Shown in pieces: positions 11,695 through 59,407 of a stretch of DNA of 64,000 bases; within the stretch, counting starts at the first letter, position 1, and each line of letters begins with the position of its first letter. This DNA is from a virus, in the IMG/VR virus record IMGVR_UViG_3300027714_000004, positions 1 through 64,000 of that record. The stretch is one strand, 5' to 3'. Both the position numbers and the translations under genes were made by a program. The notes under the pieces were generated by a model. The model had not been told where the DNA came from. It saw nothing but the letters and a program-made list of their open reading frames with translations, and ran no database searches.

Positions 11695-12354
11695 ATGAAA
11701 CTGATTAGCGAATACGTAGAGAACGATGTACAATGCATTGTAGAAGCCAAAGATAATGGTGAGAAGAGTTACGTTATTGAAGGTGTATTTGCACAAGCAG
11801 ATCAAAAGAATAGAAACGGACGTATTTACCCAAGAGCCATTATGGAGTCTGCGGTAAATAAATATGTTGAAGACCAAGTTAGCAAGAAACGCGCCGTGGG
11901 TGAATTGAATCATCCTGAAGGCCCTACAGTTAACTTGGATAAAGTTTCTCACCTCATCACTGACCTTAGATTAGAAGGCAATGATGTGGTAGGAAGGGCA
12001 CAAATATTAGATACTCCTATGGGTAAGATCGTAAAAGGTCTCTTAGAAGGTGGTGTTCAATTAGGCGTGTCAACTCGTGGTATGGGAAGTCTTGAGACAA
12101 GAAATGGCGTAAACTACGTCAAAGAAGACTTTATTCTTAGTACAATTGATATTGTGCAAGATCCAAGTGCACCTGAAGCTTTCGTTAATGGGATTATGGA
12201 AGGTGTAGACTGGGTATGGAATAATGGAATTTTACAACCTCAAGTCATTGAAGAGATAGAGACTGAAATCAAACAAGCAACTGAAGCACATCGTCCAGAA
12301 GTGCAGATTCGTGAGTTTAAGAATTTCCTCTCGTTAATCAAATCTAAACTATAA
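11695..12354 (+). CDS. gp21: Prohead core protease gp21
   Basis: Serine protease of the herpes-assemblin-like fold that cleaves scaffold, capsid and internal head proteins after [LI]-x-E. Catalytic candidates are His in GELNHPEGP (about residue 73) and Ser in LGVSTRGMGS (about 126), spaced as in the family. Length 219 matches T4 gp21 (212). An IVE/A sequence near residue 18 may be a self-cleavage site. It lies between the core protein and scaffold genes as in T4. Confidence 0.95.
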   Translation: MKLISEYVENDVQCIVEAKDNGEKSYVIEGVFAQADQKNRNGRIYPRAIMESAVNKYVEDQVSKKRAVGELNHPEGPTVNLDKVSHLITDLRLEGNDVVGRAQILDTPMGKIVKGLLEGGVQLGVSTRGMGSLETRNGVNYVKEDFILSTIDIVQDPSAPEAFVNGIMEGVDWVWNNGILQPQVIEEIETEIKQATEAHRPEVQIREFKNFLSLIKSKL

Positions 12355-12363
12355 GGAGTCACT

Positions 12364-13410
12364 ATGACTGATTTAAATAAGACAGACAGTGAAATCCGCG
12401 ATACAGATGTTGAAACTAACGAAATCGTGGAGGGAACTCTCGAAGAAGCAAAAGCCCCTGCAGCTACAGGCGTAACGACAGACGGACAAGAAGTATCAGA
12501 GCCAGAGTCAATCGCATCAGTAGACAAAGCGGCAAAATCTACTTCTAAGGCGACACTACCTAAAACTAAAGCTGGTATGATCAATGCGATGTATCAGAAA
12601 ATGAACAAGATGAAGAAAGAAGATCTAACTTCTTCTTATTCAAAAATGTTCGAAGGTATTGACCTAGAAGACTATGTTGCAGAACAAACTGATTCTCAGT
12701 CTGAACTTGCGGCAATCGTTGAAGGCGAAGCAACTCTATCTGAAGAGTTCAAAGAAAAGACATCACTAATTTTTGAAGCAGCTGTTAAGTCAAAGTTGTC
12801 CGAAGAAGTTACTCGTCTTGAAGAGCAGTATTCAGAAGAACTTGCTGAAGAAGTATCTTCAATTAAAACCGACTTGGTAGGTAAGGTAGATTCTTACCTA
12901 AACTATGTAGTTGAATCTTGGATGGAAGAGAACAAGTTAGCGATCCACTCCGGTCTACGTACCGAAATCGCTGAAGGGTTCATGGACAAGATGAAGGATC
13001 TATTCGTAGAGTCTTACATCGACGTTCCAGAGTCTAAGGTAGACCTAGTTGACGAATTAGCATTGCAAGTAGAAGAGTTAGAAGAAAAACTAAACTCAAC
13101 TACTGGTGACGCAATTTCACTTGCTGAAGAACTAGAAACTTACAAGCGTGATTCAATCATCGCTGAAGCTTCTCGTGGATTAGCAGACACACAAGCCGAA
13201 AAGTTAAAAGGACTTCTCGAAACAGTTGAATTTGAAAGTGAAGAGACATTCACTGCAAAAGTAACTACTGTTAAAGAGTCATACTTTTCAAAAGAAATCC
13301 CTGAGCAACTCGAAGAATCAGCCGTCACAGACGATGCTGAAGAAGAAATCGAAGTATCTTCTATGATGGAAGGTTACATCTCTGCTCTAAGAAAAACCTC
13401 TAAGAAATAA
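12364..13410 (+). CDS. gp22: Prohead scaffold protein gp22
   Basis: Major scaffold of the prohead core, degraded by gp21 before packaging. The 348-residue product is highly charged and almost wholly helical, with long Glu/Lys-rich coiled-coil segments. Candidate gp21 sites are present, e.g. IVE/G and LEE/A within the first 30 residues. It is longer than T4 gp22 (269). The position between gp21 and gp23 is canonical, and a good ribosome site (AAGGAG) precedes the ATG. Confidence 0.93.
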   Translation: MTDLNKTDSEIRDTDVETNEIVEGTLEEAKAPAATGVTTDGQEVSEPESIASVDKAAKSTSKATLPKTKAGMINAMYQKMNKMKKEDLTSSYSKMFEGIDLEDYVAEQTDSQSELAAIVEGEATLSEEFKEKTSLIFEAAVKSKLSEEVTRLEEQYSEELAEEVSSIKTDLVGKVDSYLNYVVESWMEENKLAIHSGLRTEIAEGFMDKMKDLFVESYIDVPESKVDLVDELALQVEELEEKLNSTTGDAISLAEELETYKRDSIIAEASRGLADTQAEKLKGLLETVEFESEETFTAKVTTVKESYFSKEIPEQLEESAVTDDAEEEIEVSSMMEGYISALRKTSKK

Positions 13411-13422
13411 GGAATCTAAAAA

Positions 13423-14730
13423 ATGAATAATTCATACGACACATTGATTGAAAAATGGTCTCCAGTACTAAACGAAGAATCAGCTGGTAAGATCACAGAT
13501 CATCACCGTAAAGCAGTTACTGCTGCTATCCTAGAAAACCAAGAACGCGCAATGATCGAAGAACGCGCTGCTTCACAGGGTTTCCTAGCAGAATCTCCAA
13601 CTAACGCAACTGGTTCTGCCGTTGCTAACTGGGATCCAGTTTTGATCTCTCTAGTACGCCGTGCAATGCCTAACCTAATGGCATATGACGTATGTGGCGT
13701 TCAGCCAATGTCAGGCCCAACTGGTCTTATCTTTGCAATGAAAGCAAAGTATACTTCACAGACTGGTGATGAAGCACTATTCAACGAAGCAAACTCTGCA
13801 TTCTCTGGTACTGGTACACAAACTGCTGAATCATCAGGTATGTCTGGATTCGACGAGGCCACTGGTCTTGGTCGTGAGCTAGATGCTGCTGGTCGTCCAA
13901 TCGCTACTTCAGCTGCTGAAGCACTCGGTGAAGCTGGTGGTACTGACTTCGCAGAAATGGGTTTCTCAATCGAGAAGCAATCTGTTGTTGCTAAGTCACG
14001 TGCACTTAAAGCAGAATACTCTCTAGAACTTGCACAAGATCTTAAAGCAATCCACGGCCTTGACGCAGAAACAGAATTGGCAAACATCTTGTCAACTGAG
14101 ATCCTAGCAGAAATCAACCGCGAAGTAATTCGTACAGTTAACACTCAGGCAGTTCTAGGTGCTCAACAAGCATCAATCGCGAACGCTGGTGTTTTCGATC
14201 TAACTTCAGACGCAGACGGACGTTGGTCAGCAGAGAAGTTCAAGGGTCTAGTAATTCAATTGGATCGTGAAGCGAACGAAATTGCTAAGACAACTCGTCG
14301 TGGTAAGGGTAACATCGTAATCTGTTCATCAGACGTTGCTACTGCACTTGCTGCTTCTGGTCAGTTGGACTATCAAGTAGGCGCTGGTCTACAGGTAGAC
14401 GATACTGGTAATACTTTTGCTGGTACTCTAAACGGTCGTATGAAAGTCTATATCGATCCATACGCCTCAATCGACTACTGTACTGTTGGTTATAAGGGTT
14501 CTAACGCTTATGACGCAGGTGTGTTCTACTGCCCATATGTTCCATTACAAATGGTTAAGGCAGTATCTGAAGATACTTTCCAGCCTAAGATTGGTTTCAA
14601 GACGCGTTACGGAATGGCTGCAAACCCATTCGTTACTAGCGCTAATGCTAATCAGGATATCTCATCGAGCAAGGGCGTTAACACTTACTACCGCATCTTC
14701 CGTGTCGATAACCTAATGGTTACTGTATAA
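13423..14730 (+). CDS. gp23: Major capsid protein gp23
   Basis: Major head subunit of the HK97 fold. The 435-residue product has the conserved start of the mature region (NWDPVLISLVRRAMPNLMA, then YDVCGVQPMSGPTGLIFAM), diagnostic for T4-type gp23. A predicted gp21 cleavage is GFLAE/S after Glu57, which would remove the targeting peptide as in T4. It is shorter than T4 gp23 (521), as in other marine members. Folding in T4 needs gp31 with GroEL; a GroES homologue is encoded at 47.8 kb. Followed by a terminator. Confidence 0.98.
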   Translation: MNNSYDTLIEKWSPVLNEESAGKITDHHRKAVTAAILENQERAMIEERAASQGFLAESPTNATGSAVANWDPVLISLVRRAMPNLMAYDVCGVQPMSGPTGLIFAMKAKYTSQTGDEALFNEANSAFSGTGTQTAESSGMSGFDEATGLGRELDAAGRPIATSAAEALGEAGGTDFAEMGFSIEKQSVVAKSRALKAEYSLELAQDLKAIHGLDAETELANILSTEILAEINREVIRTVNTQAVLGAQQASIANAGVFDLTSDADGRWSAEKFKGLVIQLDREANEIAKTTRRGKGNIVICSSDVATALAASGQLDYQVGAGLQVDDTGNTFAGTLNGRMKVYIDPYASIDYCTVGYKGSNAYDAGVFYCPYVPLQMVKAVSEDTFQPKIGFKTRYGMAANPFVTSANANQDISSSKGVNTYYRIFRVDNLMVTV

Positions 14731-42022: not shown

Positions 42023-42337
42023 ATGGGTATTGAATTGAATACGACAGATATAGTTTCTTTGGCTGTAGGAGGTATTGCTATATTACTTGCGGTTTACTGT
42101 ATTATAGGTGTATTGCGATGGCCGCCTGAGAAGAATGAATCGGCAGACACTACTACTCCAGACATTGAAGATACTTTCGAAGATCAACGAGTACAGTTTG
42201 ATAAAATGACCGTGCCTCAGTTAAAGAAGCACGTCAAAGAAAATAAAAATAAATTAGTCGAACCAATGGGACGTATGCCTACTAGGAAGGCAGATCTTGT
42301 TGAGACCTCTCTACGTATATGGACTCATGAAAAATGA
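42023..42337 (+). CDS. Membrane protein with SAP/Rho-N-like tail
   Basis: The 104-residue product has one membrane segment (IVSLAVGGIAILLAVYCIIG, about 10-29) and a C-terminal helical module (KMTVPQLKKHVKENKNKLVE, then RKADLVETSLRIW) like the small SAP/HeH DNA-binding folds. The gene at 60767 has a similar module (MTKRELDELGNANGL). A membrane-tethered DNA-binding protein is an inference. Overlaps the next gene by ATGA. Confidence 0.65.
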   Translation: MGIELNTTDIVSLAVGGIAILLAVYCIIGVLRWPPEKNESADTTTPDIEDTFEDQRVQFDKMTVPQLKKHVKENKNKLVEPMGRMPTRKADLVETSLRIWTHEK

Positions 42338-43005
42338 AACTACAATCTTTCAATTCCTTCTTGAACGAAGGTGTAAACGACCCAGCAATCTTTAAGGCAA
42401 TCTTCCTTGCAGGCGGGCCAGGCTCAGGTAAGTCGTTCATCGTCGGTAAGACGGGTCTGACTTCTATGGGTTATAAGGTGGTTAACTCTGATGATTCGTT
42501 TGAGAACGCTATGAAGAAAGCATCGATGGAAATGAATCCCGATAACATCTTCTCGGTCAAAGGTCAAGAACTCCGTGGTAAGGCAAAGAGTCTCACTGGC
42601 ACCAAACAAACGATGTACATCAAAGGTCGTCTAGGTTTGGTTATCGATGGTACTGGTAAAGACCCAAGTAAGATCGCAGCCCAAGCAAAGGAACTCAAGA
42701 AACTGGGTTACGATGTCGCAATGATTTTCGTTAACACCGATCTTGACACTGCAATCTCTCGTGATGCGCAACGTGCACGTACACTAGGTGCTAAAGGCGT
42801 TACTGAATATTGGAAAGCAGTACAGGCAAATATCGGTAAGTTCCAAACTATGTTCGGTAAGACGAACTTCCTAGTTGTGGATAACTCTGAAGGTAAGGAT
42901 TACCAGAAAGAGACACTACGCGCATATCGTGATGCTACCAAGTTCACCCAGTCACCTGTAGACAACTCTAAGGCAAAGAAGTGGATTGCCGGAGAAAAGA
43001 AATAA
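42334..43005 (+). CDS. Zeta-toxin/PNK-like P-loop kinase, head-targeting N-terminus
   Basis: The 223-residue product has a short N-terminal peptide MKLQSFNSFLNE/G, with an LNE/G gp21-type site, and then a P-loop kinase domain: Walker A AGGPGSGKS (26-34), NSDDSF (about 50-55), LVIDGTGKDP (about 106-115) and VNTDLDTAISRDAQRAR (about 135-151). The layout is that of phage zeta-toxin/polynucleotide-kinase-like proteins. The peptide suggests packaging in the head and delivery with DNA. The substrate (nucleotide, nucleic acid or UDP-sugar) is open. Confidence 0.78.
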   Translation: MKLQSFNSFLNEGVNDPAIFKAIFLAGGPGSGKSFIVGKTGLTSMGYKVVNSDDSFENAMKKASMEMNPDNIFSVKGQELRGKAKSLTGTKQTMYIKGRLGLVIDGTGKDPSKIAAQAKELKKLGYDVAMIFVNTDLDTAISRDAQRARTLGAKGVTEYWKAVQANIGKFQTMFGKTNFLVVDNSEGKDYQKETLRAYRDATKFTQSPVDNSKAKKWIAGEKK

Positions 43006-47762: not shown

Positions 47763-48029
47763 ATGAAAGTCTTACATAATAATGTTTTAGTTACACAAGA
47801 TAAAGCAAAAGAATCCACAACAGCTAGCGGTCTGATTATCTCATCTGCAAAACCTACTGGACAAACTCCAGCCAAGGTAATTAGTATGAGTATCGAAGTT
47901 GCGTCAAAGAATACTATCGCAGCGGGTAACACCGTATACTTCGATTGGAGTAAGGCGATTGCAGTAGAACTGGACGGTATCCAGTGTGCAGTTATTGATT
48001 ATAACGACATTAAGTTGATTGTAGACTAG
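47763..48029 (+). CDS. GroES-like co-chaperonin (gp31 role)
   Basis: The 88-residue product (start at the second of two adjacent ATGs because AAGGA is then well spaced) has the GroES pattern: KVLHNNVLVTQDKAKESTTA, mobile loop ending SGLIISS, then PAKVISM, a GNTVYFDW block and QCAVIDYNDIKLIV. In T4 gp31 replaces GroES to fold gp23 with host GroEL. This protein is closer to bacterial GroES than to gp31 but probably does the same. Only 20 bp after tRNA-Asp. Confidence 0.85.
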   Translation: MKVLHNNVLVTQDKAKESTTASGLIISSAKPTGQTPAKVISMSIEVASKNTIAAGNTVYFDWSKAIAVELDGIQCAVIDYNDIKLIVD

Positions 48030-48380: not shown

Positions 48381-49817
48381 ATGAATACTAAAGTTTTACT
48401 ATTGCTATCCTCTATATTCCTAACTGCATGTGGTGGTGACGAGTCGTCCACAACTCCTTTAGAGTCTGTTGCCAATACTCCGTCCACACCAACTGTTGCA
48501 GAACCTACGGATTTAGAGATTGCGTTAGAAGATCTCCAAGATATCATGAACGCAACGTCTCCGACTGGTTCCTATGAGGGTTATATCCTCCCAGAGAGCG
48601 ATGACTTCCTCAACATCCCCCAAGACCCCAACAACCCAATTACTGCTGAAAAAGTAGCACTAGGTAAGCTGATATACCACGAAACTGGTATCACTTCTGA
48701 TGGTCTGGGTAAGACCGATATGGATAACACGTGGTCTTGTGCGTCTTGTCACAATGGACAGAACGGGTTTAAGTCTGGTATTCGACAGGGTATTGGTGAA
48801 GGTGGTGTTGGATTCAACCATCGAACTTTTGCCGAAGGTATGGAAGAACTTGCTGATATCCAACCTGTAACATCCCCTACTGTTCTTAATACCGCATATC
48901 AAGAAGTGATGTTATGGAACGGTCAGTTCGGTAATGTTGTGGGTGGTATCGTTAATGTTGGTATTGATCCAGAGAGACACTTTACCGAAGGTACTCCTAA
49001 AGGCGAGAACTTACGTGGATTTGCAGGACTTGAAACTCAAGCACTCGCTGGTTTAGTGGTTCACCGAATGAATGCAGCAGAACCGGACTCTATACTATCT
49101 ACTAATGAGAAGTATCAGATGATGTTTGAGGCGGCATACGGAACATCACGACCGAATGATATGTTAGAGGCAGCTGCTCTTGCGATTGCCGCATACGAAC
49201 GTACTATACTTGCAAACCAAGCTCCTTTTCAAAAGATGTTACGCGGTGACGCAAATGCATTATCTTTAGAAGAAGTTGAAGGTGCGAAGGTATTCTTCGG
49301 TAAGGGTGGTTGTGCGGGTTGTCATAATGGCCCTGCGTTATCTTCACCAGTTGGTTCCTTGGCAAGTGAAGTCTTTATGACACTGGGATTCAATGACTTG
49401 GATATGTGGGAAGATACAGTTGGAGAAGTCAACCAAGCGACAAAAGAAGGTCGTGCTGGATTTACGGGTGATGAGATGGAGAAGTATGCTTTCAAAGTTC
49501 CACCACTATATAACCTCAAAGATACGAACGTGTTTGGTCATGGTGGTTCATTCACCTCTGTAGCAGATGTTGTTAGATACAAGATCATGGCAGTGGCAGA
49601 ACACTCTGAAGTCGAAAGTACAAACCTAGACCATCGTTTCGTCCCTCTGGACTTGACTGATGAAGAAGTATCTAACTTGGTGACTTTCCTAGAAGACGGT
49701 CTACATGATCCGGATTTGATGCGGTATGTTCCTGAAGAACTTCCTAGCGGTAACTGCGTAACTAACAACGATGAACAGTCTAGAGAAGAATTAGGGTGTA
49801 CCAATAATGGTCAGTAA
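48381..49817 (+). CDS. Di-haem cytochrome c peroxidase (MauG/CcpA family) lipoprotein
   Basis: The 478-residue product is an exported c-type cytochrome. A signal peptide with lipobox LTAC (Cys17) is followed by a Ser/Thr/Pro linker, then two haem-binding motifs, CASCH (120-124) and CAGCH (311-315), in the spacing of bacterial di-haem peroxidases. Further family parts are SPTVLNTAYQEVMLWNGQFG (about 165-184) and the C-terminal PPLYNLKDTNVFGHGGS block. The start is the ATG at 48381, 29 bp after tRNA-Ser; an earlier frame overlaps the tRNA. It would reduce peroxide or oxidise a protein in the periplasm, using host haem maturation. It looks acquired from a bacterium. Confidence 0.93.
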   Translation: MNTKVLLLLSSIFLTACGGDESSTTPLESVANTPSTPTVAEPTDLEIALEDLQDIMNATSPTGSYEGYILPESDDFLNIPQDPNNPITAEKVALGKLIYHETGITSDGLGKTDMDNTWSCASCHNGQNGFKSGIRQGIGEGGVGFNHRTFAEGMEELADIQPVTSPTVLNTAYQEVMLWNGQFGNVVGGIVNVGIDPERHFTEGTPKGENLRGFAGLETQALAGLVVHRMNAAEPDSILSTNEKYQMMFEAAYGTSRPNDMLEAAALAIAAYERTILANQAPFQKMLRGDANALSLEEVEGAKVFFGKGGCAGCHNGPALSSPVGSLASEVFMTLGFNDLDMWEDTVGEVNQATKEGRAGFTGDEMEKYAFKVPPLYNLKDTNVFGHGGSFTSVADVVRYKIMAVAEHSEVESTNLDHRFVPLDLTDEEVSNLVTFLEDGLHDPDLMRYVPEELPSGNCVTNNDEQSREELGCTNNGQ

Positions 49818-51102: not shown

Positions 51103-52398
51103 ATGTTAAAATTTGCATCATATCTATCAGAAGCATCTCTAACCTTTGGTGAGATAACTCGTGAAGATAGAGAGTTTCGTCTGGAGTTGTTCTTGCGCAA
51201 ATACAAGAGCAACGAACCATTTGATCTGACTGACGGTGGACAAGTTATACTGAAGTATAATGCAGAGATTGAACGAGCGATGAAGTCAAGAGATTCTAAG
51301 CGTGCTACGGCAATTGGTTTAGAAACTATGGATGGTGACAAGATTTCTTTTGGTAAGCTTCTCAAGACTGGTGAGTTTGGTGGTGGTCGTGGTACTGGGG
51401 GTGGTTCTCTTAACACTCGTGCCACCGAGTCCGCGCAATGTGTCTATCTACAGGCAATTTGGGATAACCCCCAAACTAACTTCTCTCCTGATGAACTACG
51501 TACTGCATATACTAAAACCCATACGGACGCAACACTAGACGAAGTTCTATTGGGTGATGATGCGTGGATATCCTCCTCTATCAATGCAGCGAAAGTATTG
51601 CATAAGGTGTTGAAGAAGAAGCAATACTCTTTCCACCGTGGTTCTAATTGGGTTAGTATCCTTGATAATAAGTTTAAGGAAGTTAACAGAGAAGAGAAAC
51701 AGTTCTCTAATCTAAACAAATGGAATCCTTCTGACATATGGATGGTCGCAAAGGGTGCAGAGAACAAGTACGATATCGAAGGTGCTAAGACACTACAGTA
51801 CTTGAACAATGAGTTGCTCAAGGCATATGCCGCACGTGACATCATTGGAGTATCTCTGAAGAAGGTAGGTAAGAAGGCTAAACTCACTCAAGTGAATTAT
51901 AAGAAACCCTTTGCTTCCCCAAAATTCACCAAGGTGTCATACGGTAAGAGAGACTTCTTCAAGTCAAAAGATGGTTACCTAATGTACTCTGGTGGAGAAA
52001 TCCAGTTTAGAACATACCCAACATTCCAGTGTGAAATCATTGGTAGAGATGCAAAGCACGGTAAGCTGAGTCATGGCCCCATTGACGCTGCTTTATATGC
52101 GACCACTCGTAATATGACGGACAACCGAAAGAAACTAGAAACTATGATTAAGAGTGACCGAGATGGGTTCCTCAAAAAGTTCTATGGATTCTATGACGGT
52201 GCTGTTGACAAACCTGTGGACTATGATACATTTACCAAGAACCTAGAAGATAAGACCACCGAATGGTTGGTGTCAAAGTATTATGTGACATCAATATTTG
52301 TGATGGTTAAGGGAAGGGAACAACAGTTCTTGGAATATCTGTATAGAGGGGCAAAATCACAATCCAAACTTTCATCAGTTCATTTGAAAGTACAATAG
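51103..52398 (+). CDS. Candidate head-targeted nuclease-like protein
   Basis: The 431-residue product starts MLKFASYLSE/A, with an LSE/A gp21-type site; alternatives are ATG 51091 and TTG 51085. A Gly-rich loop (TGEFGGGRGTGGGS, about 80) and NKWNPSDIWMVAKG, then YAARDIIGVSLKKVGK (about 200-255) look like a PD-(D/E)XK active site with Asp and SLK; this is tentative. Late promoter and N-peptide point to packaging in the head. Large for an internal protein. Confidence 0.6.
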   Translation: MLKFASYLSEASLTFGEITREDREFRLELFLRKYKSNEPFDLTDGGQVILKYNAEIERAMKSRDSKRATAIGLETMDGDKISFGKLLKTGEFGGGRGTGGGSLNTRATESAQCVYLQAIWDNPQTNFSPDELRTAYTKTHTDATLDEVLLGDDAWISSSINAAKVLHKVLKKKQYSFHRGSNWVSILDNKFKEVNREEKQFSNLNKWNPSDIWMVAKGAENKYDIEGAKTLQYLNNELLKAYAARDIIGVSLKKVGKKAKLTQVNYKKPFASPKFTKVSYGKRDFFKSKDGYLMYSGGEIQFRTYPTFQCEIIGRDAKHGKLSHGPIDAALYATTRNMTDNRKKLETMIKSDRDGFLKKFYGFYDGAVDKPVDYDTFTKNLEDKTTEWLVSKYYVTSIFVMVKGREQQFLEYLYRGAKSQSKLSSVHLKVQ

Positions 52399-53842: not shown

Positions 53843-55063
53843 ATGGAAAACTTCGCAGATTTCATAACGGAGCAAAAGAATACGCATATGACTCACATTG
53901 AGGACAAAGTCCTGTACGGTGGAGTTGATGGTACGCGTCAGGCTATTAATGCTCTGCGAAGTCTGCGAGATATGTTGTCCGGTAGTTCAAAGGGAAGCGT
54001 CTCAGTAAAGTGGGACGGTGCTCCTGCAATCTTTTGTGGCACCGACCCAAGTGACGGTAAGTTCTTTGTTGCTAAGAAAGGTATCTTCAATAAGAACCCA
54101 AAGGTCTATAAGACTAATGCAGACATCGACGATGATACGTCAGGTGACCTAAATGCAAAGTTAAAGGAAGCATTACTATATCTTCCTGAGTTGGGAATCA
54201 AGGGTGTAATTCAGGGAGACTTCCTGTTCGGTAAAGGAGATGTGTCCACTAAGAACATCGACGGACAGAAGTATACCGTGTTCCACCCAAACACTATTGC
54301 GTATGCAGTGCCGTACGACCAATCTAAAGAAGTGCGCGATGCTAAGATCGGTATCGTGTGGCACACTACCTATAAAGGTAAAGACTTTGAGTCAATGTCT
54401 GCTTCATATGGAGTGGATGTTTCTAAACTAAAGAAGTCTAGAAACGTATGGTCTCAGGACGCGATGTTGCGAGACGCGACTAAAGCAACAATGTCGGAAA
54501 AGGATACCAAAGAAGTCAATGGTCTGTTGACTCAGATAGGGTTGTTGTTCAAACAAACCTCTTCCACAACTCTACGTGCACTAGAGAGCAATCCCAAACT
54601 AGCGCAATCTATAGAGACATACAACAATTCCTTTGTTCGTGCGGGTGCATTACTTCCGGACTCAAAAAGGCATGTTAGCGGATTGATAAGTAATAGACAA
54701 GCTTACTACAAGAAAGAGATAGACAGTAAGAAGTCTGAACGTGGTAAAGAGACGTGGAAACAGAAATATGCCGATGAAATGGAGTTTTTCTCTCCTTCTA
54801 ACCGTGCTAATCTAGTTAAAATGTTCGAATTGCAAAAATTAATAGTTTTGGTTAAATTAAAACTTATAAATAGTTTAGACAAATTAAAGTTGATTGACAC
54901 TTTCGTGAAAACTTCTAAAGGTTATAAAGTGACTGGTGAAGAAGGTTATGTAGCAATTGACACACTTGGTGGTGACGCGGTGAAATTGGTTGACCGTATG
55001 GAATTTTCATACAACAACTTTTCGTCCGATATATTAAAGGGCTGGGACTCAGCTCGAAGATAA
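53843..55063 (+). CDS. Nucleotidyltransferase/ligase-like protein, head-targeting N-terminus
   Basis: The 406-residue product (start at the second ATG, which has GGATAA upstream and gives MENFADFITE) has an ITE site followed by a VSVKWDGAPAIF segment (54-63) that matches motif I K-x-D-G of covalent nucleotidyltransferases (DNA/RNA ligases), with Lys56 as candidate. FFVAKKGIF and GVIQGDFLFG could be motifs III and IV; IVWHTTYKGK may hold motif V. Similar proteins in marine phages are DUF6267-type. End-joining or RNA repair cargo is inferred. Confidence 0.65.
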   Translation: MENFADFITEQKNTHMTHIEDKVLYGGVDGTRQAINALRSLRDMLSGSSKGSVSVKWDGAPAIFCGTDPSDGKFFVAKKGIFNKNPKVYKTNADIDDDTSGDLNAKLKEALLYLPELGIKGVIQGDFLFGKGDVSTKNIDGQKYTVFHPNTIAYAVPYDQSKEVRDAKIGIVWHTTYKGKDFESMSASYGVDVSKLKKSRNVWSQDAMLRDATKATMSEKDTKEVNGLLTQIGLLFKQTSSTTLRALESNPKLAQSIETYNNSFVRAGALLPDSKRHVSGLISNRQAYYKKEIDSKKSERGKETWKQKYADEMEFFSPSNRANLVKMFELQKLIVLVKLKLINSLDKLKLIDTFVKTSKGYKVTGEEGYVAIDTLGGDAVKLVDRMEFSYNNFSSDILKGWDSARR

Positions 55064-55096: not shown

Positions 55097-55468
55097 ATGT
55101 TGTCATTTAAAGATCTAGTAACGGAAGTACTCGACGTACAACAACGTCGAAAACTTGCGATGCGAATGAAAAGAAACAAATCTAGAATAGCAATTGCGCG
55201 TAAACGTTCTGAAAAGAAGATTGCTAACATGGACACGTTAAAGAAACGTGCACGTCGACAAGCACGTAGCGCAGTAATATCCAAACTCACTAAAGGTAAA
55301 GACAAGGGAGAGATGTCGATAGCTCGTAAGAAAGATATCGAGAAGAGACTAGAACGCCCTGCTTTACAATCCCGTATCGACCGACAAGCTAAGAAACTTG
55401 TGAAGGTAGTTCGTAAGCAAGAAATCGAACGCAAAAGAAACAGGTCTAGAGGCGGTGATAACAAGTGA
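55097..55468 (+). CDS. Very basic head-internal protein (candidate)
   Basis: The 123-residue product is about one third Lys/Arg. It starts MLSFKDLVTE and continues as one long charged helix (RRKLAMRMKRNKSRIAIARK; RRQARSAVISKLTKGK). Homologues are common in cyanophages and other marine T4-like phages near virion genes. A DNA-condensing internal protein is the likely role. Overlaps the next gene by GTGA. Confidence 0.75.
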   Translation: MLSFKDLVTEVLDVQQRRKLAMRMKRNKSRIAIARKRSEKKIANMDTLKKRARRQARSAVISKLTKGKDKGEMSIARKKDIEKRLERPALQSRIDRQAKKLVKVVRKQEIERKRNRSRGGDNK

Positions 55469-57138
55469 TTAAGAATTTTAGTCAATATCTTATCGAAGAA
55501 GAACGCGAAGTCTACTTCACGTTTGGTCGTATGAATCCTCCTACGATTGGTCATGGTAAGGTAATGGATATGTTAGCGAAGAAGTCTGGGAAGTCAGACT
55601 ATAAAGTATTTGTGTCTCAGTCACAGGACGCGAAGAAGAACCCGTTATCATACTCCGATAAAATCAAGCACACAAGAAAGATGTTTCCGAAACATGCACG
55701 GAATATCATGGTGGATAAGTCTGTTAAAACAGCTATCAACGCCATGGTCGCATTACACGATCAAGGTTACCAATCAGTAACTATGGTTGTGGGTGACGAC
55801 AGAATTACAGAATTCGATGTACTATTAAAGAAATACAATGGTGCACAGGCCAGACATGGTTTTTATAACTTCAAGAGCATTAAAGTAGTATCTGCCGGTA
55901 AGAGAGATCCAGATTCTGCTGGTATTGAAGGTATGTCCGCATCCAAACAAAGAGAGAACGCGTCTAATAACGATTTCGTTTCTTTCTCCCAAGGTGTTCC
56001 TAAGACAATGTCAAATCCTGACACACGTAAGTTGTTTAATGACGTGCGTAAGGGTATGGGTCTGAAGGAAGCCAGTGAATTCCGTAATCACCTAGAACTA
56101 GAGATAGTATCTGAAACACGAGAGAAATTCGTGCAAGGAGAATTGTTCGAGGTAGGCGATATAGTAGTAATCAAAGAAAGTGAAGAGGTTGCTACTATAT
56201 CCGTCCTAGGTGCAAACTATGTCATCGTTGAAACTAACGATGGTAAGAAGATGCGTAAATGGTTAGAGTCTGTAGAGTTAATCTCCGAAGACGTGACCCA
56301 GAAGCAACTTAATGATCTAGAGAAGTTCGGTGACCGTCTATTGAAGAAGTTCAATATCGACATCGAGTTTACTCGACACTTCGCAGACCGTATGAATGAT
56401 ACCCGTAATAGTCCTGCTATTAAGGTAACGGAACTTCAACGTCTGTTTAAGAAGATTGCAAAGAACAAGGGCAAAGGCATAAAACAGCATGGGGATGCTG
56501 AGGCAGTACTGAAAGATATGCAGTCAGACCTAAATCTACCTGTCGTTGTAAACTATAAGGACGGTGAGTTCGAAATGGTTAACAAGACTATTATGCGTAA
56601 GAAGGGATTCAAGACTAGCAGTCCAGTCATCCAGTATGAAGGACAAGACCCTGATATCAAAGACCGCGAAGGTACTCAACCAGCACGTTATCACAAAGGA
56701 CTTGCGAAGTCCACCAAGGCAAAACGTGATGCGCACTTCAAAGCAAAGAAAGATGGCCCTGCGCCAGGCGATGCTAACGCAAAGACCAAACCTTCCAAGT
56801 ATACTAAATCCTTTAAGGACATGTATGACGAAGATTGTTGGGACGGTTACAAGCAAGTCGGTGTGAAAAAGAAAGGTGGTAAGACCGTACCGGATTGTGT
56901 TGCAGAAGAGAATAGTCAAGGTATTAACGAAGGGTTCATGGACACAGTAAAGTCTAAGACCATCAATAAAAAACAATACCAACATGCGTTGATGACTTTG
57001 AAGAATCTTCTGACTCGTAAGAGTGATGAGAATAACCTGACTCATAGTACAGAGTATTATGCACAGAAGGTCGCCAAAACATATTCGGGTATGGACACTA
57101 AAGTACTGCACCGTATGTTAGGGAATTGGAAACCATGA
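55465..57138 (+). CDS. Cytidylyltransferase-like polyprotein, head-targeting N-terminus
   Basis: The 557-residue product starts at GTG: MIKNFSQYLIE/E. Residues about 14-195 are a nucleotidyltransferase domain: FGRMNPPTIGHGK holds the T/H-x-G-H site (H30) and GMSASKQREN (156-165) the second motif. After a GLKE/A site comes a small barrel (ELFEVGDIVVIKESE), then after LISE/D a helical module (FTRHFADRMNDTRNS), a DCWDGYKQVGVKKKGG module common in marine phage virion proteins, and a last part after INE/G. The order domain-site-domain suggests gp21 processing. Confidence 0.72.
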   Translation: MIKNFSQYLIEEEREVYFTFGRMNPPTIGHGKVMDMLAKKSGKSDYKVFVSQSQDAKKNPLSYSDKIKHTRKMFPKHARNIMVDKSVKTAINAMVALHDQGYQSVTMVVGDDRITEFDVLLKKYNGAQARHGFYNFKSIKVVSAGKRDPDSAGIEGMSASKQRENASNNDFVSFSQGVPKTMSNPDTRKLFNDVRKGMGLKEASEFRNHLELEIVSETREKFVQGELFEVGDIVVIKESEEVATISVLGANYVIVETNDGKKMRKWLESVELISEDVTQKQLNDLEKFGDRLLKKFNIDIEFTRHFADRMNDTRNSPAIKVTELQRLFKKIAKNKGKGIKQHGDAEAVLKDMQSDLNLPVVVNYKDGEFEMVNKTIMRKKGFKTSSPVIQYEGQDPDIKDREGTQPARYHKGLAKSTKAKRDAHFKAKKDGPAPGDANAKTKPSKYTKSFKDMYDEDCWDGYKQVGVKKKGGKTVPDCVAEENSQGINEGFMDTVKSKTINKKQYQHALMTLKNLLTRKSDENNLTHSTEYYAQKVAKTYSGMDTKVLHRMLGNWKP

Positions 57139-57407
57139 TTAATTTTAAGAAATACCTTGACGAGGGACGTTATTCAGTGTATGATACGCTTGAACTGGAC
57201 GAAGGCCCAGACGGTATTGCAGGAAAAGCAAAGAAGTCCGGTATCTCTTCGGAGGTATTGCAGAAAGTTTATAACCGTGGAGTTGCAGCATGGAAGACGG
57301 GTCACAGGCCCGGCACAACACCCCAGCAGTGGGGTCATGCACGAGTGAATGCCTTTATCGTTAAAAAGAAAAAGGGTGGTCTCAACCACGACAAAGATCT
57401 AGCATAA
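57135..57407 (+). CDS. DUF5824 virion protein
   Basis: The 90-residue product (ATG 57135 after GGAAACC) starts MINFKKYLDE/G, with a second LDE/G at residue 23. The rest is the DUF5824 signature GIAGKAKKSGISSEVLQKVY, then NRGVAAWKTGHRPGTTPQQW and DKDLA, conserved across marine T4-like phages. The two gp21-type sites would release the bare DUF5824 domain. Overlaps the preceding stop by four bases. Confidence 0.82.
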   Translation: MINFKKYLDEGRYSVYDTLELDEGPDGIAGKAKKSGISSEVLQKVYNRGVAAWKTGHRPGTTPQQWGHARVNAFIVKKKKGGLNHDKDLA

Positions 57408-57473: not shown

Positions 57474-58730
57474 GTGAAAAGTTTTAAAGATATACGACTA
57501 TCAGAATCTGTTGACCTAGACGAAGCCAAAGATAAAGACAACGACTATCGTAGAGTGTCTAAGGCTATAACCCAGACCCCTAAACATAAACGAGACAAGA
57601 AAGCAACCGATGCAACCCCTGCCAAGACAGACGCGAAAGCAGTTGCTCGACGCAAAGCGATTGAGAAGCACCAAGCACGATCGAAAGCGAAGAAAGATGA
57701 CTACTCATATGAGTCGGTTGAAGAAGACGCCTCTGGAATGACTGCTGCTCAGAAGAAGAAGTTCGATACCCTCTATAAAAAAATGGATGGTGGTAAAGAA
57801 CACAGGGCAATCAGACAAAAGATTCATAACCCAATCAAAGCAGACGATGCATTTCATGGTCTAGTCAAGAAGATGGCGATGGAATCTATTGACGAGAGTG
57901 CCAAAGGTCTGGTAGGTGGATTCACCGTAGAGATACCAAAGCAAACTATCTCTGGTAAAACAATCGGTGGTGGTAAAGGCGGAATCTTTGTTAAGGCGAA
58001 GACTGCTCGTCAAGCAATCAGCATGGCGGCAAAACGTCTGGGTGTTGATTTCATGATGCTTAAAGTCGGTAAGGTAGTTAAAGAAGGTGTCGAATCATTT
58101 TCTGAGTCGGTAAACCTTGAAGAAGGAAAAATGAAAGAGTTTCATGACTATATCGATCAAGGTAAATCTGCACAGTGGATTGCTAAGAAGATGGGTCTGG
58201 ACATGAAGACGGTAAAAGAATTGATGGCAGACATGAAAGAGTCTGTCGAACTTGACGAAGCATACCAACAATTCTTGGATAAGGCTCCTAACTGGGGTGA
58301 AGACAAGGCAATCTCTTATGGACGCAAGAAGGGTTACAAAGAGATTGGGGTATGTGGCCACGGTAATATAGATGGTATTGTATTGTTCGGTATGGATGCC
58401 GGTGACAAATCATATGTCGGTAAGGAAGCAAAGGTTAAGACTGGTCAAACAGTATTCCGTTATGCTACTAGACGTACTGTCGCAGGCGATATATTCCCTC
58501 TAGTTAAGATTGATGTTAAGAGAGGTATTCTATATAACCTGTCTCAGAAGTCTAGTGAAGGGGAGATTGAACACGCAGAGTTTGAGACTAAGGGAGTCAA
58601 GTTACGTTATCTTCGTCTTCTCGCTAGTGCTAACCTCCGAGACATTACTGGGTTCGATCCTGGCTTTGGTTCAATGAAAGAGTCTACTGCACTTAAAACT
58701 CTTAGCGATATCCGAGAAGCAAGATCTTAA
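57474..58730 (+). CDS. Candidate gp21-processed polyprotein
   Basis: The 418-residue product starts at GTG with AGAGGAAG upstream: MKSFKDIRLSE/S. Sites of the type [LI]-x-E/[AGS] occur at LSE11, LDE17, IDE141, LEE217, LDE262 and IRE415, several in the shared context ESV-x-L-[DE]-E. They bound four segments: a Lys-rich basic part (18-141), a Gly-rich alpha/beta part (142-217), a short helix-turn-helix-like piece (218-262, MKEFHDYIDQGKSAQWIAKK) and a beta domain (263-415). The regular spacing is the main evidence. No enzyme motif is recognised. Confidence 0.7.
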   Translation: MKSFKDIRLSESVDLDEAKDKDNDYRRVSKAITQTPKHKRDKKATDATPAKTDAKAVARRKAIEKHQARSKAKKDDYSYESVEEDASGMTAAQKKKFDTLYKKMDGGKEHRAIRQKIHNPIKADDAFHGLVKKMAMESIDESAKGLVGGFTVEIPKQTISGKTIGGGKGGIFVKAKTARQAISMAAKRLGVDFMMLKVGKVVKEGVESFSESVNLEEGKMKEFHDYIDQGKSAQWIAKKMGLDMKTVKELMADMKESVELDEAYQQFLDKAPNWGEDKAISYGRKKGYKEIGVCGHGNIDGIVLFGMDAGDKSYVGKEAKVKTGQTVFRYATRRTVAGDIFPLVKIDVKRGILYNLSQKSSEGEIEHAEFETKGVKLRYLRLLASANLRDITGFDPGFGSMKESTALKTLSDIREARS

Positions 58731-59407
58731 TGAGAAGTTTTCGTTCTTTTATAACAGACAGTGTTGATGCCGAGAAAGAATATGGTGCGTCATTTGTCGC
58801 GTCTGCCAAGTCAGTTGGTGTGCAACGTAAGTTGACCAAAGAACTTGGTGTTAAACTCAAAGAGGTAGAGAAGTCTTTGGGTCATGGTGGTGGCGGTAAT
58901 GGACTTACGCCGGACAATGTGAAGTCGAACCCTAAGTGGAAAGCGGCAAAGAAAGCATTGGATGTCGCATTTAAGAAAGAACAACAAATGAACCAAGCGA
59001 TGTCAAAGGCGTTTGGTAAGCAGATGAAAGACTTCCGCAACAAAGATCGTAGAGGGTATATGTCTTTGTTTATCGGAGAGTCTACAGAAGTTTGTTGTGA
59101 AGACTGCGTAGAAGAACTCATCGTTGAAGACGGTGTATTCATCAACGAAGATGGTAAGAAAGATAACGTGAAACTTAACAATCCTACCCGTGGTGGTAGT
59201 AAGAAGTTTTACGTATATGTAAAGAACGAGAAAGGCAACGTGGTTAAGGTTTCTTTCGGAGATCCCAATATGGAGATCAAAAGAGATGATCCTGCACGTC
59301 GAAAGAGTTTCAGGGCAAGGCACAACTGTGCAGACCCTGGCCCGAAGTGGAAGGCACGGTACTGGTCATGTTATCAATGGCGAGCCGGTGCTAAAGTAGA
59401 TAATTGA
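58730..59407 (+). CDS. Head-associated protein with conserved C-terminal module
   Basis: The 225-residue product begins MRSFRSFITD/S, a near-miss of the head-targeting peptide. The first half is basic and helical. After an acidic Cys-rich linker (EVCCEDCVEELIVEDGVF) comes a module (KKFYVYVKNEKGNVVKVSFG, then ARRKSFRARHNC and WKARYWSCYQWRAG) seen in marine phage virion proteins. The four Cys in the linker and end may bind metal. Start overlaps the preceding stop by one base. Confidence 0.65.
   Translation: MRSFRSFITDSVDAEKEYGASFVASAKSVGVQRKLTKELGVKLKEVEKSLGHGGGGNGLTPDNVKSNPKWKAAKKALDVAFKKEQQMNQAMSKAFGKQMKDFRNKDRRGYMSLFIGESTEVCCEDCVEELIVEDGVFINEDGKKDNVKLNNPTRGGSKKFYVYVKNEKGNVVKVSFGDPNMEIKRDDPARRKSFRARHNCADPGPKWKARYWSCYQWRAGAKVDN

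Follow-up and report, generated by a model that had tools for sequence, protein, structure and literature searches.

Results

A nucleotidyltransferase gene fused to serial modules

The gene at positions 55465-57138 raises the question of what is made from a chain that joins a nucleotidyltransferase (NTase) to a start resembling that of phage head proteins and to a series of further modules. A reading of the DNA alone (the sequence-only reading) had proposed a packaged enzyme, with candidate sites for a gp21-type protease, that could act at once after injection. The window, the whole stretch of 64,000 nucleotides that was analyzed, belongs to a virus record of 145,426 bases from a marine, T4-like phage; among named phages, C48C1 (Kyanoviridae) is its closest relative, followed by Methylophilales phage Melnitz and Pelagibacter phage HTVC008M. 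We consider it likely that the gene product is a precursor of internal head proteins, including a packaged and injected NTase.

The open reading frame (ORF 55465, plus strand) starts with GTG exactly as previously read, overlaps the stop of the upstream gene and encodes 557 amino acids. From the N-terminus, we distinguished a capsid-targeting sequence (CTS), MIKNFSQYLIE (residues 1-11, 55465..55497), with a predicted cut after E11; a HIGH-type nucleotidylyltransferase with the motifs GRMNPPTIGH and GMSASKxR (residues 12-202, 55498..56070) and a predicted cut at LKE202/A (the slash marks the cut); a linker and a small beta-barrel (residues 203-275, 56071..56289), with a candidate site at ISE275/D; a helical, mobile domain, module C (about residues 276-392, 56290..56640), recognized by phrog_23027 (E 9e-39); a putative N-terminal half of DUF5824 (about residues 394-456, 56644..56832), with a weak Pfam match below the cut-off (406-457, E 0.005); a Cys hairpin module CWDGYKQVGVKKKGGKTVPDC (about residues 457-482, 56833..56910); and, after INE489/G, a C-terminal helical module (residues 490-557, 56932..57135).

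The anatomy given by the sequence-only reading is right. In the AlphaFold2 model the ordered parts were the NTase (13-199, pLDDT mostly above 90), the barrel (217-273, with strands at 233-272 and pLDDT about 84-92) and the C-terminal helical part (489-552, pLDDT 88-97), plus the hairpin at 462-480. Confidence was low for residues 1-12 and 481-487, for module C (279-373) and for the DUF5824 half, and lowered in the 200-216 linker. The barrel was conserved in relatives and matched phrog_4808.

The cytidylyltransferase-like domain, previously recognized from PPTIGHGK (residues 25-32) and GMSASKQREN (residues 156-165), matched Pfam CTP_transf_like over residues 19-122 (E 1.1e-5, above the cut-off) and PHROG “cytidyltransferase” families (E 4e-66 and 3e-63); the NTase had no NCBIfam match, and its sequence profile gave no meaningful match to PDB chains. 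Homologues to some part of ORF 55465 occurred in 540 phage records, mostly cyanomyoviruses. From about 150 relatives collected from viral contigs, 84 sequences were aligned, and the motifs NPPTxGH and GxSAxKxR were kept throughout: N24, P25, P26, T27, G29, H30, G156, S158, K161 and R163 were present in all 84 rows and A159 in 81. The domain combines the (T/H)xGH and SxSxxR/K motifs with a Rossmann-like fold, the features that define the CTP_transf_like superfamily. The jumbo-phage homologues (PA5oct and GAP32) were stand-alone domains devoid of a CTS.

A T4-type capsid-targeting sequence

In the internal protein IPIII of T4, targeting requires residues 4 and 7, processing requires residues 8 and 10, and the D10 change allows targeting and blocks processing (PMC9026906). 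The start of ORF 55465 has the same spacing shifted by one residue, its positions 5, 8, 9 and 11 corresponding to IPIII positions 4, 7, 8 and 10, and MIKNFSQYLIE carries the expected residues (aromatic at IPIII positions 4 and 7, I/L at 8, E at 10). F5, [YF]8, [LIV]9 and E11 were found in all 83 aligned relatives having an N-terminus, while positions 6, 7, 10 and 12-15 varied. The strict pattern [FY]xx[FY][ILV]xE started 5 of the 179 ORFs of the genome, against 0.12 expected from internal windows; a shuffle control gave a mean of 0.08 ORFs and a maximum of 2 in 1000 shuffles. The five are ORF 55465, a kinase (ORF 42334), a DUF6267 protein (ORF 53843) and ORFs 51103 and 57135. Because of this conservation and of five ORFs against about 0.1 expected, the head-type peptide noticed previously is not a chance pattern. 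A looser regular expression retrieved 13 ORFs against 3.6 expected, non-head genes among them; it was too permissive and was dropped, and we therefore adopted the strict T4 spacing. The NTase gene of HTVC008M has no canonical CTS.

A protease that could process such a chain is predicted in the same genome. The protease, scaffold and capsid genes, assigned from sequence and gene order, lie at 11.7-14.7 kb in the T4 order: a predicted gp21-type prohead protease (11695..12354, plus strand) stands 5' of a predicted gp22-like scaffold and gp23-like major capsid protein (12364..14730, plus strand; ORFs 12364 and 13423), the latter with a candidate propeptide site at LAE57/S. The general gp21 motif [ILV]xE[AGS] was most in excess in the scaffold, which had the largest excess of the genome (10 against 2.5 expected), and in ORF 57474, and was high in the protease itself (5 against 1.0 expected). 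Head proteins are expected to show such an excess, but on its own it is not specific, since some non-head ORFs show it too.

Fold comparison and the acceptor of the nucleotidyltransferase

In the VIA comparison of the NTase model, PPAT came first (Z 13.9, rmsd 3.0, 156 aligned), followed by NadD (13.0) and NadM (12.8), rows within 1 Z being tied, and Foldseek ranked NadD first; phosphopantetheine and NMN/NaMN enzymes are thus inseparable by comparison of the modelled fold. Judged from this model, the domain is most likely an adenylyltransferase, possibly of the NMN/NaMN type. The packaged enzyme might instead be a PPAT, or a nucleotidyltransferase for some other coenzyme or for a lipid head group, a reading that we regard as rather doubtful. 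The top VIA rows speak for it, as does the TxGH form of the motif, which is PPAT-like; against it stand the tie between rows, the Foldseek ranking and the HxGH form carried by the homologues of cyanophages S-SZBM1 and S-CREM2. No profile of the NAPRTase/nicotinamide phosphoribosyltransferase family matched in the genome, which leaves a second phage gene for NAD salvage unsupported. The sequence-only reading had also listed host RNA among the possible targets; no evidence suggests that the NTase domain acts directly on RNA.

Tagged companions of the nucleotidyltransferase

Several neighbors of ORF 55465 carry a CTS or a CTS-like start (all on the plus strand). The DUF6267 protein (53843..55063; Pfam E 1e-105) begins with MENFADFITE and was modelled with a pLDDT of 87.9. 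RNA/DNA ligases made up all of the best 50 VIA rows listed for it, with Naegleria RNA ligase at Z 7.9 (rmsd 4.0, 182 aligned), T4 Rnl1 at 7.3 and Rnl2 at 7.0. K56-x-D58-G59 (motif I), E367-G368 (motif IV) and K381 (motif V) were invariant in 70 of 70 sequences. The features of the polynucleotide ligase superfamily (KxDG, EG, the motif V Lys and the fold) were thus all found, with a best Z of only 7.9; a Z below 8 alone is weak, and it is because fold and motifs agree that membership of this superfamily is likely for the modelled protein. Foldseek alone gave a weak DNA-ligase match (E 0.047), and none of the Pfam profiles RNA_lig_T4_1, RNA_ligase and DNA_ligase_A_M matched anywhere in the genome. 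DUF6267 profile matches to gamma-SNAP and TFIIF were set aside as apparent noise from helices. At least 465 phage records match the family, and a literature search gave no paper and no described function for it.

The third tagged enzyme is a predicted P-loop kinase of the zeta-toxin/AAA_33 family (42334..43005; Pfam Zeta_toxin E 6e-11, AAA_33 E 1e-8), whose CTS was found in 21 of 23 distinct leaders. With these companions, the three proteins could form a packaged set for nucleic-acid end repair, in which NTase, ligase-like protein and zeta/PNK-like kinase would repair the ends of RNA or DNA, from host or phage, right after injection, for instance after anticodon nucleases, as a packaged counterpart of T4 Pnkp/Rnl1. 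We hold this to be unlikely. The shared CTS, the ligase fold and invariant motifs of DUF6267, the Pfam match of the kinase, the adjacency of kinase and NTase genes in HTVC008M and that of DUF6267 and NTase genes in 141 loci among those searched all fit it. Yet small molecules are the usual substrates of HIGH-type enzymes with the NTase fold, the target of the kinase may be a different one, and DUF6267 lacks a CTS in cyanophages S-SZBM1, S-CAM9 and S-SM1. S-SZBM1_141, one of these tagless proteins, is absent from the S-SZBM1 mass spectrometry list in its accessible form; for a link between tag and packaging this is a single consistent case and not a test. In S-SZBM1 and S-CAM9 the tagless protein begins with M-AKNTHLEHLED, which resembles the N-terminus that the tagged protein is predicted to have after cleavage, a point in favor of the precursor reading. 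A broader proposal, a three-enzyme nucleotide-chemistry set under one shared tag that would act at injection, before transcription, either in RNA-end repair or in restoring nucleotides attacked by host defence, can be put forward only tentatively.

Immediately upstream of the NTase gene, ORF 55097 (55097..55468) encodes a small, very basic, internal-protein-like product with a CTS-like start under the relaxed motif (MLSFKDLVTE); it is homologous, via phrog_23027, to an internal module of gp354 of Sinorhizobium phage phiM19. Downstream, the C-terminal half of DUF5824 forms a separate CTS gene (57135..57407; MINFKKYLDE/G ... LELDE/G; Pfam E 7e-19). It is followed by ORF 57474 (57474..58730), with a CTS-like start and 7 [ILV]xE[AGS] sites between modules against 1.2 expected, and by an ORF (58730..59407) whose CTS, MRSFRSFITD, has Asp at the cut position, in parallel to T4 IPIII D10 (PMC9026906). 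The CTS-bearing product of ORF 51103 (51103..52398; MLKFASYLSE/A) belongs to phrog_1462 and had no Pfam match; by eye, its D...SLKK arrangement might resemble the PD-(D/E)XK type.

Candidate cleavage sites and module shuffling

Four L/I-x-E sites, LIE11/E, LKE202/A, ISE275/D and INE489/G, are candidates for cleavage. E11, E202 and E489 are well-supported candidates, as the sequence-only reading had it for E11, E202 and a site near residue 490; its E274 corresponds to E275, which is weaker and kept in some relatives only. [LI]xE was present at 200-202 in 80 of the 84 relatives; S-SCSM1 and S-CAM9 lack the L/I-x-E pattern at E202. At the E489 junction the residues vary across relatives (INE, VNE, IDE, ILE, IFE, LDE) and the [ILV]xE motif stays. 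More generally, [ILV]xE was found no more than 26 residues before the NTase in 47 of 49 distinct leaders (against a mean of 26.7 and a maximum of 35 after shuffling) and no more than 26 residues before the DUF5824 C-terminal half in 19 of 22 (mean of 8.7 and maximum of 16 after shuffling). The AlphaFold2 linkers coincide with the candidate sites. Cleavage motifs at domain borders, implied by the earlier proposal of cuts between modules, were thus recovered for these junctions but not before the Cys hairpin ([ILV]xE in 1 of 4) or the basic tail module (2 of 18), for which cleavage is unsupported.

The modules also move between genes. Module C is absent in C48C1 and many relatives, is shifted to the C-terminal part in two others (L083 and L084), and forms the C-terminal module of phiM19 gp354. 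The DUF5824 halves, split over two ORFs here, are in one chain with the NTase in relatives L033 and L035. Motif-bearing junctions and modules moving as units fit a polyprotein that is predicted to be cut into pieces.

This mosaic C-terminus would also suit a polyprotein for head filling or scaffolding whose enzyme domain rides along passively and is decaying, as would phiM19 gp354 (L256:1040-2848), where a degenerate NTase (NPATVEH, no SASKxR) lies among homologous modules. Loss of catalytic residues in homologues, named beforehand as an argument against a packaged enzyme, is thus found in phiM19, and catalysis seems dispensable in that one lineage; but the residues are intact in the 84 diverse relatives, and we judge a passive cargo very unlikely.

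Homologues in virions

The presence of this NTase family in virions is already published (2010, 2022-2023), and the packaging proposed by the sequence-only reading is in that respect not new. According to the accessible text of the respective reports, mass spectrometry detected S-SM1 T4-GC190 (Sullivan 2010, PMC3037559), S-SZBM1_140 (PMC9146016), S-SCSM1 ORF91 (PMC9602691) and S-CREM2 ORF154 (PMC10665884) in virions. All four start with a CTS: MKKFSAFLNE/A in S-SM1, MRFRQFIIE/A in S-SZBM1_140, MKSFLQFLKE/A in S-SCSM1 ORF91 and MKNFSSFLTE/A in S-CREM2 ORF154. In the accessible parts of these papers, the CTS is unmentioned and the N-termini of the homologues are not given. The Cys hairpin likewise occurs in two proteins listed there as detected in virions, S-SZBM1_139 and S-CREM2 gp160. 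Together with the CTS and the intact motifs, these detections suggest that the NTase of ORF 55465 is probably packaged and active, and that its CTS is probably removed by the gp21-type protease.

That the gene would instead be an ordinary auxiliary metabolic gene acting late, with the virion NTase a contaminant and the N-terminal motif incidental, is highly improbable: the authors of two of the proteome papers mention, in the text available, possible co-purified contaminants, but the detections come from four independent phages with a strict CTS in each, and the CTS is conserved while its flanks vary and is also carried by unrelated neighbors.

In S-CREM2, gp156 (L173:7013-7726), listed as detected by mass spectrometry in the accessible text, matches the Pol-beta-type NTP_transf_2 family (E 3e-4), which adds an unrelated type of nucleotidyltransferase to the virion.

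Discussion

In the mechanism that we favor, the CTS would draw the chain of ORF 55465 into the prohead core and would be removed after E11 by the gp21-type protease, which probably also cuts after E202 and E489 to release smaller modules and a nucleotidylyltransferase about 190 residues long. Once matured, this NTase would stay in the head and enter the cell with the DNA, where it may nucleotidylate a small acceptor that carries a phosphate, most likely with ATP as the donor of AMP; NMN or NaMN, leading to NAD, would be slightly favored over phosphopantetheine.

The closest known proteins are the cyanophage T4-GC190 “cytidyltransferase” or NMNAT-like virion proteins (S-SM1, S-SZBM1, S-SCSM1, S-CREM2), which share with ORF 55465 the NTase, the barrel, the CTS and the neighborhood; they end soon after the barrel, whereas ORF 55465 fuses further virion modules downstream. 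T4 IPI-IPIII and Alt (CTS, gp21 processing and ejection) have the same targeting and processing determinants and spacing, with a cargo unrelated in sequence; Alt, to which the sequence-only reading had likened the timing, is an injected head enzyme but an ADP-ribosyltransferase. NadD/NadM and PPAT (CTP_transf_like, PF01467) have the fold and the (T/H)xGH and SxSxxR motifs in common with ORF 55465, at about 10-16% identity, but the CTS and the fused modules are found only in the latter. The polyprotein phiM19 gp354 resembles the locus in having module C, a homologue of the basic ORF, a part like the DUF5824 C-terminal half and an NTase remnant; it differs in its degenerate catalytic motifs and in module order. 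The logic of CTS and polyprotein, the shuffled modules and the CTS-tagged ligase-like and kinase companions appear undescribed.

A tag of about 10 residues would predict head-borne proteins in abundant marine phages, turning a mass spectrometry curiosity, the cyanophage virion NTase, into a readable rule, and would allow candidate injected enzymes to be listed from sequence alone. DUF6267 gains a predicted fold, and the kinase and the ligase-like enzyme may be injected together.

Two further genes were observed elsewhere in the window: a di-haem cytochrome c peroxidase (48381-49817; CCP_MauG, E 1e-23) with a lipoprotein-like signal, which adjoins tRNA genes, and a GroES-like Cpn10 homologue (47763-48029; E 5e-10).
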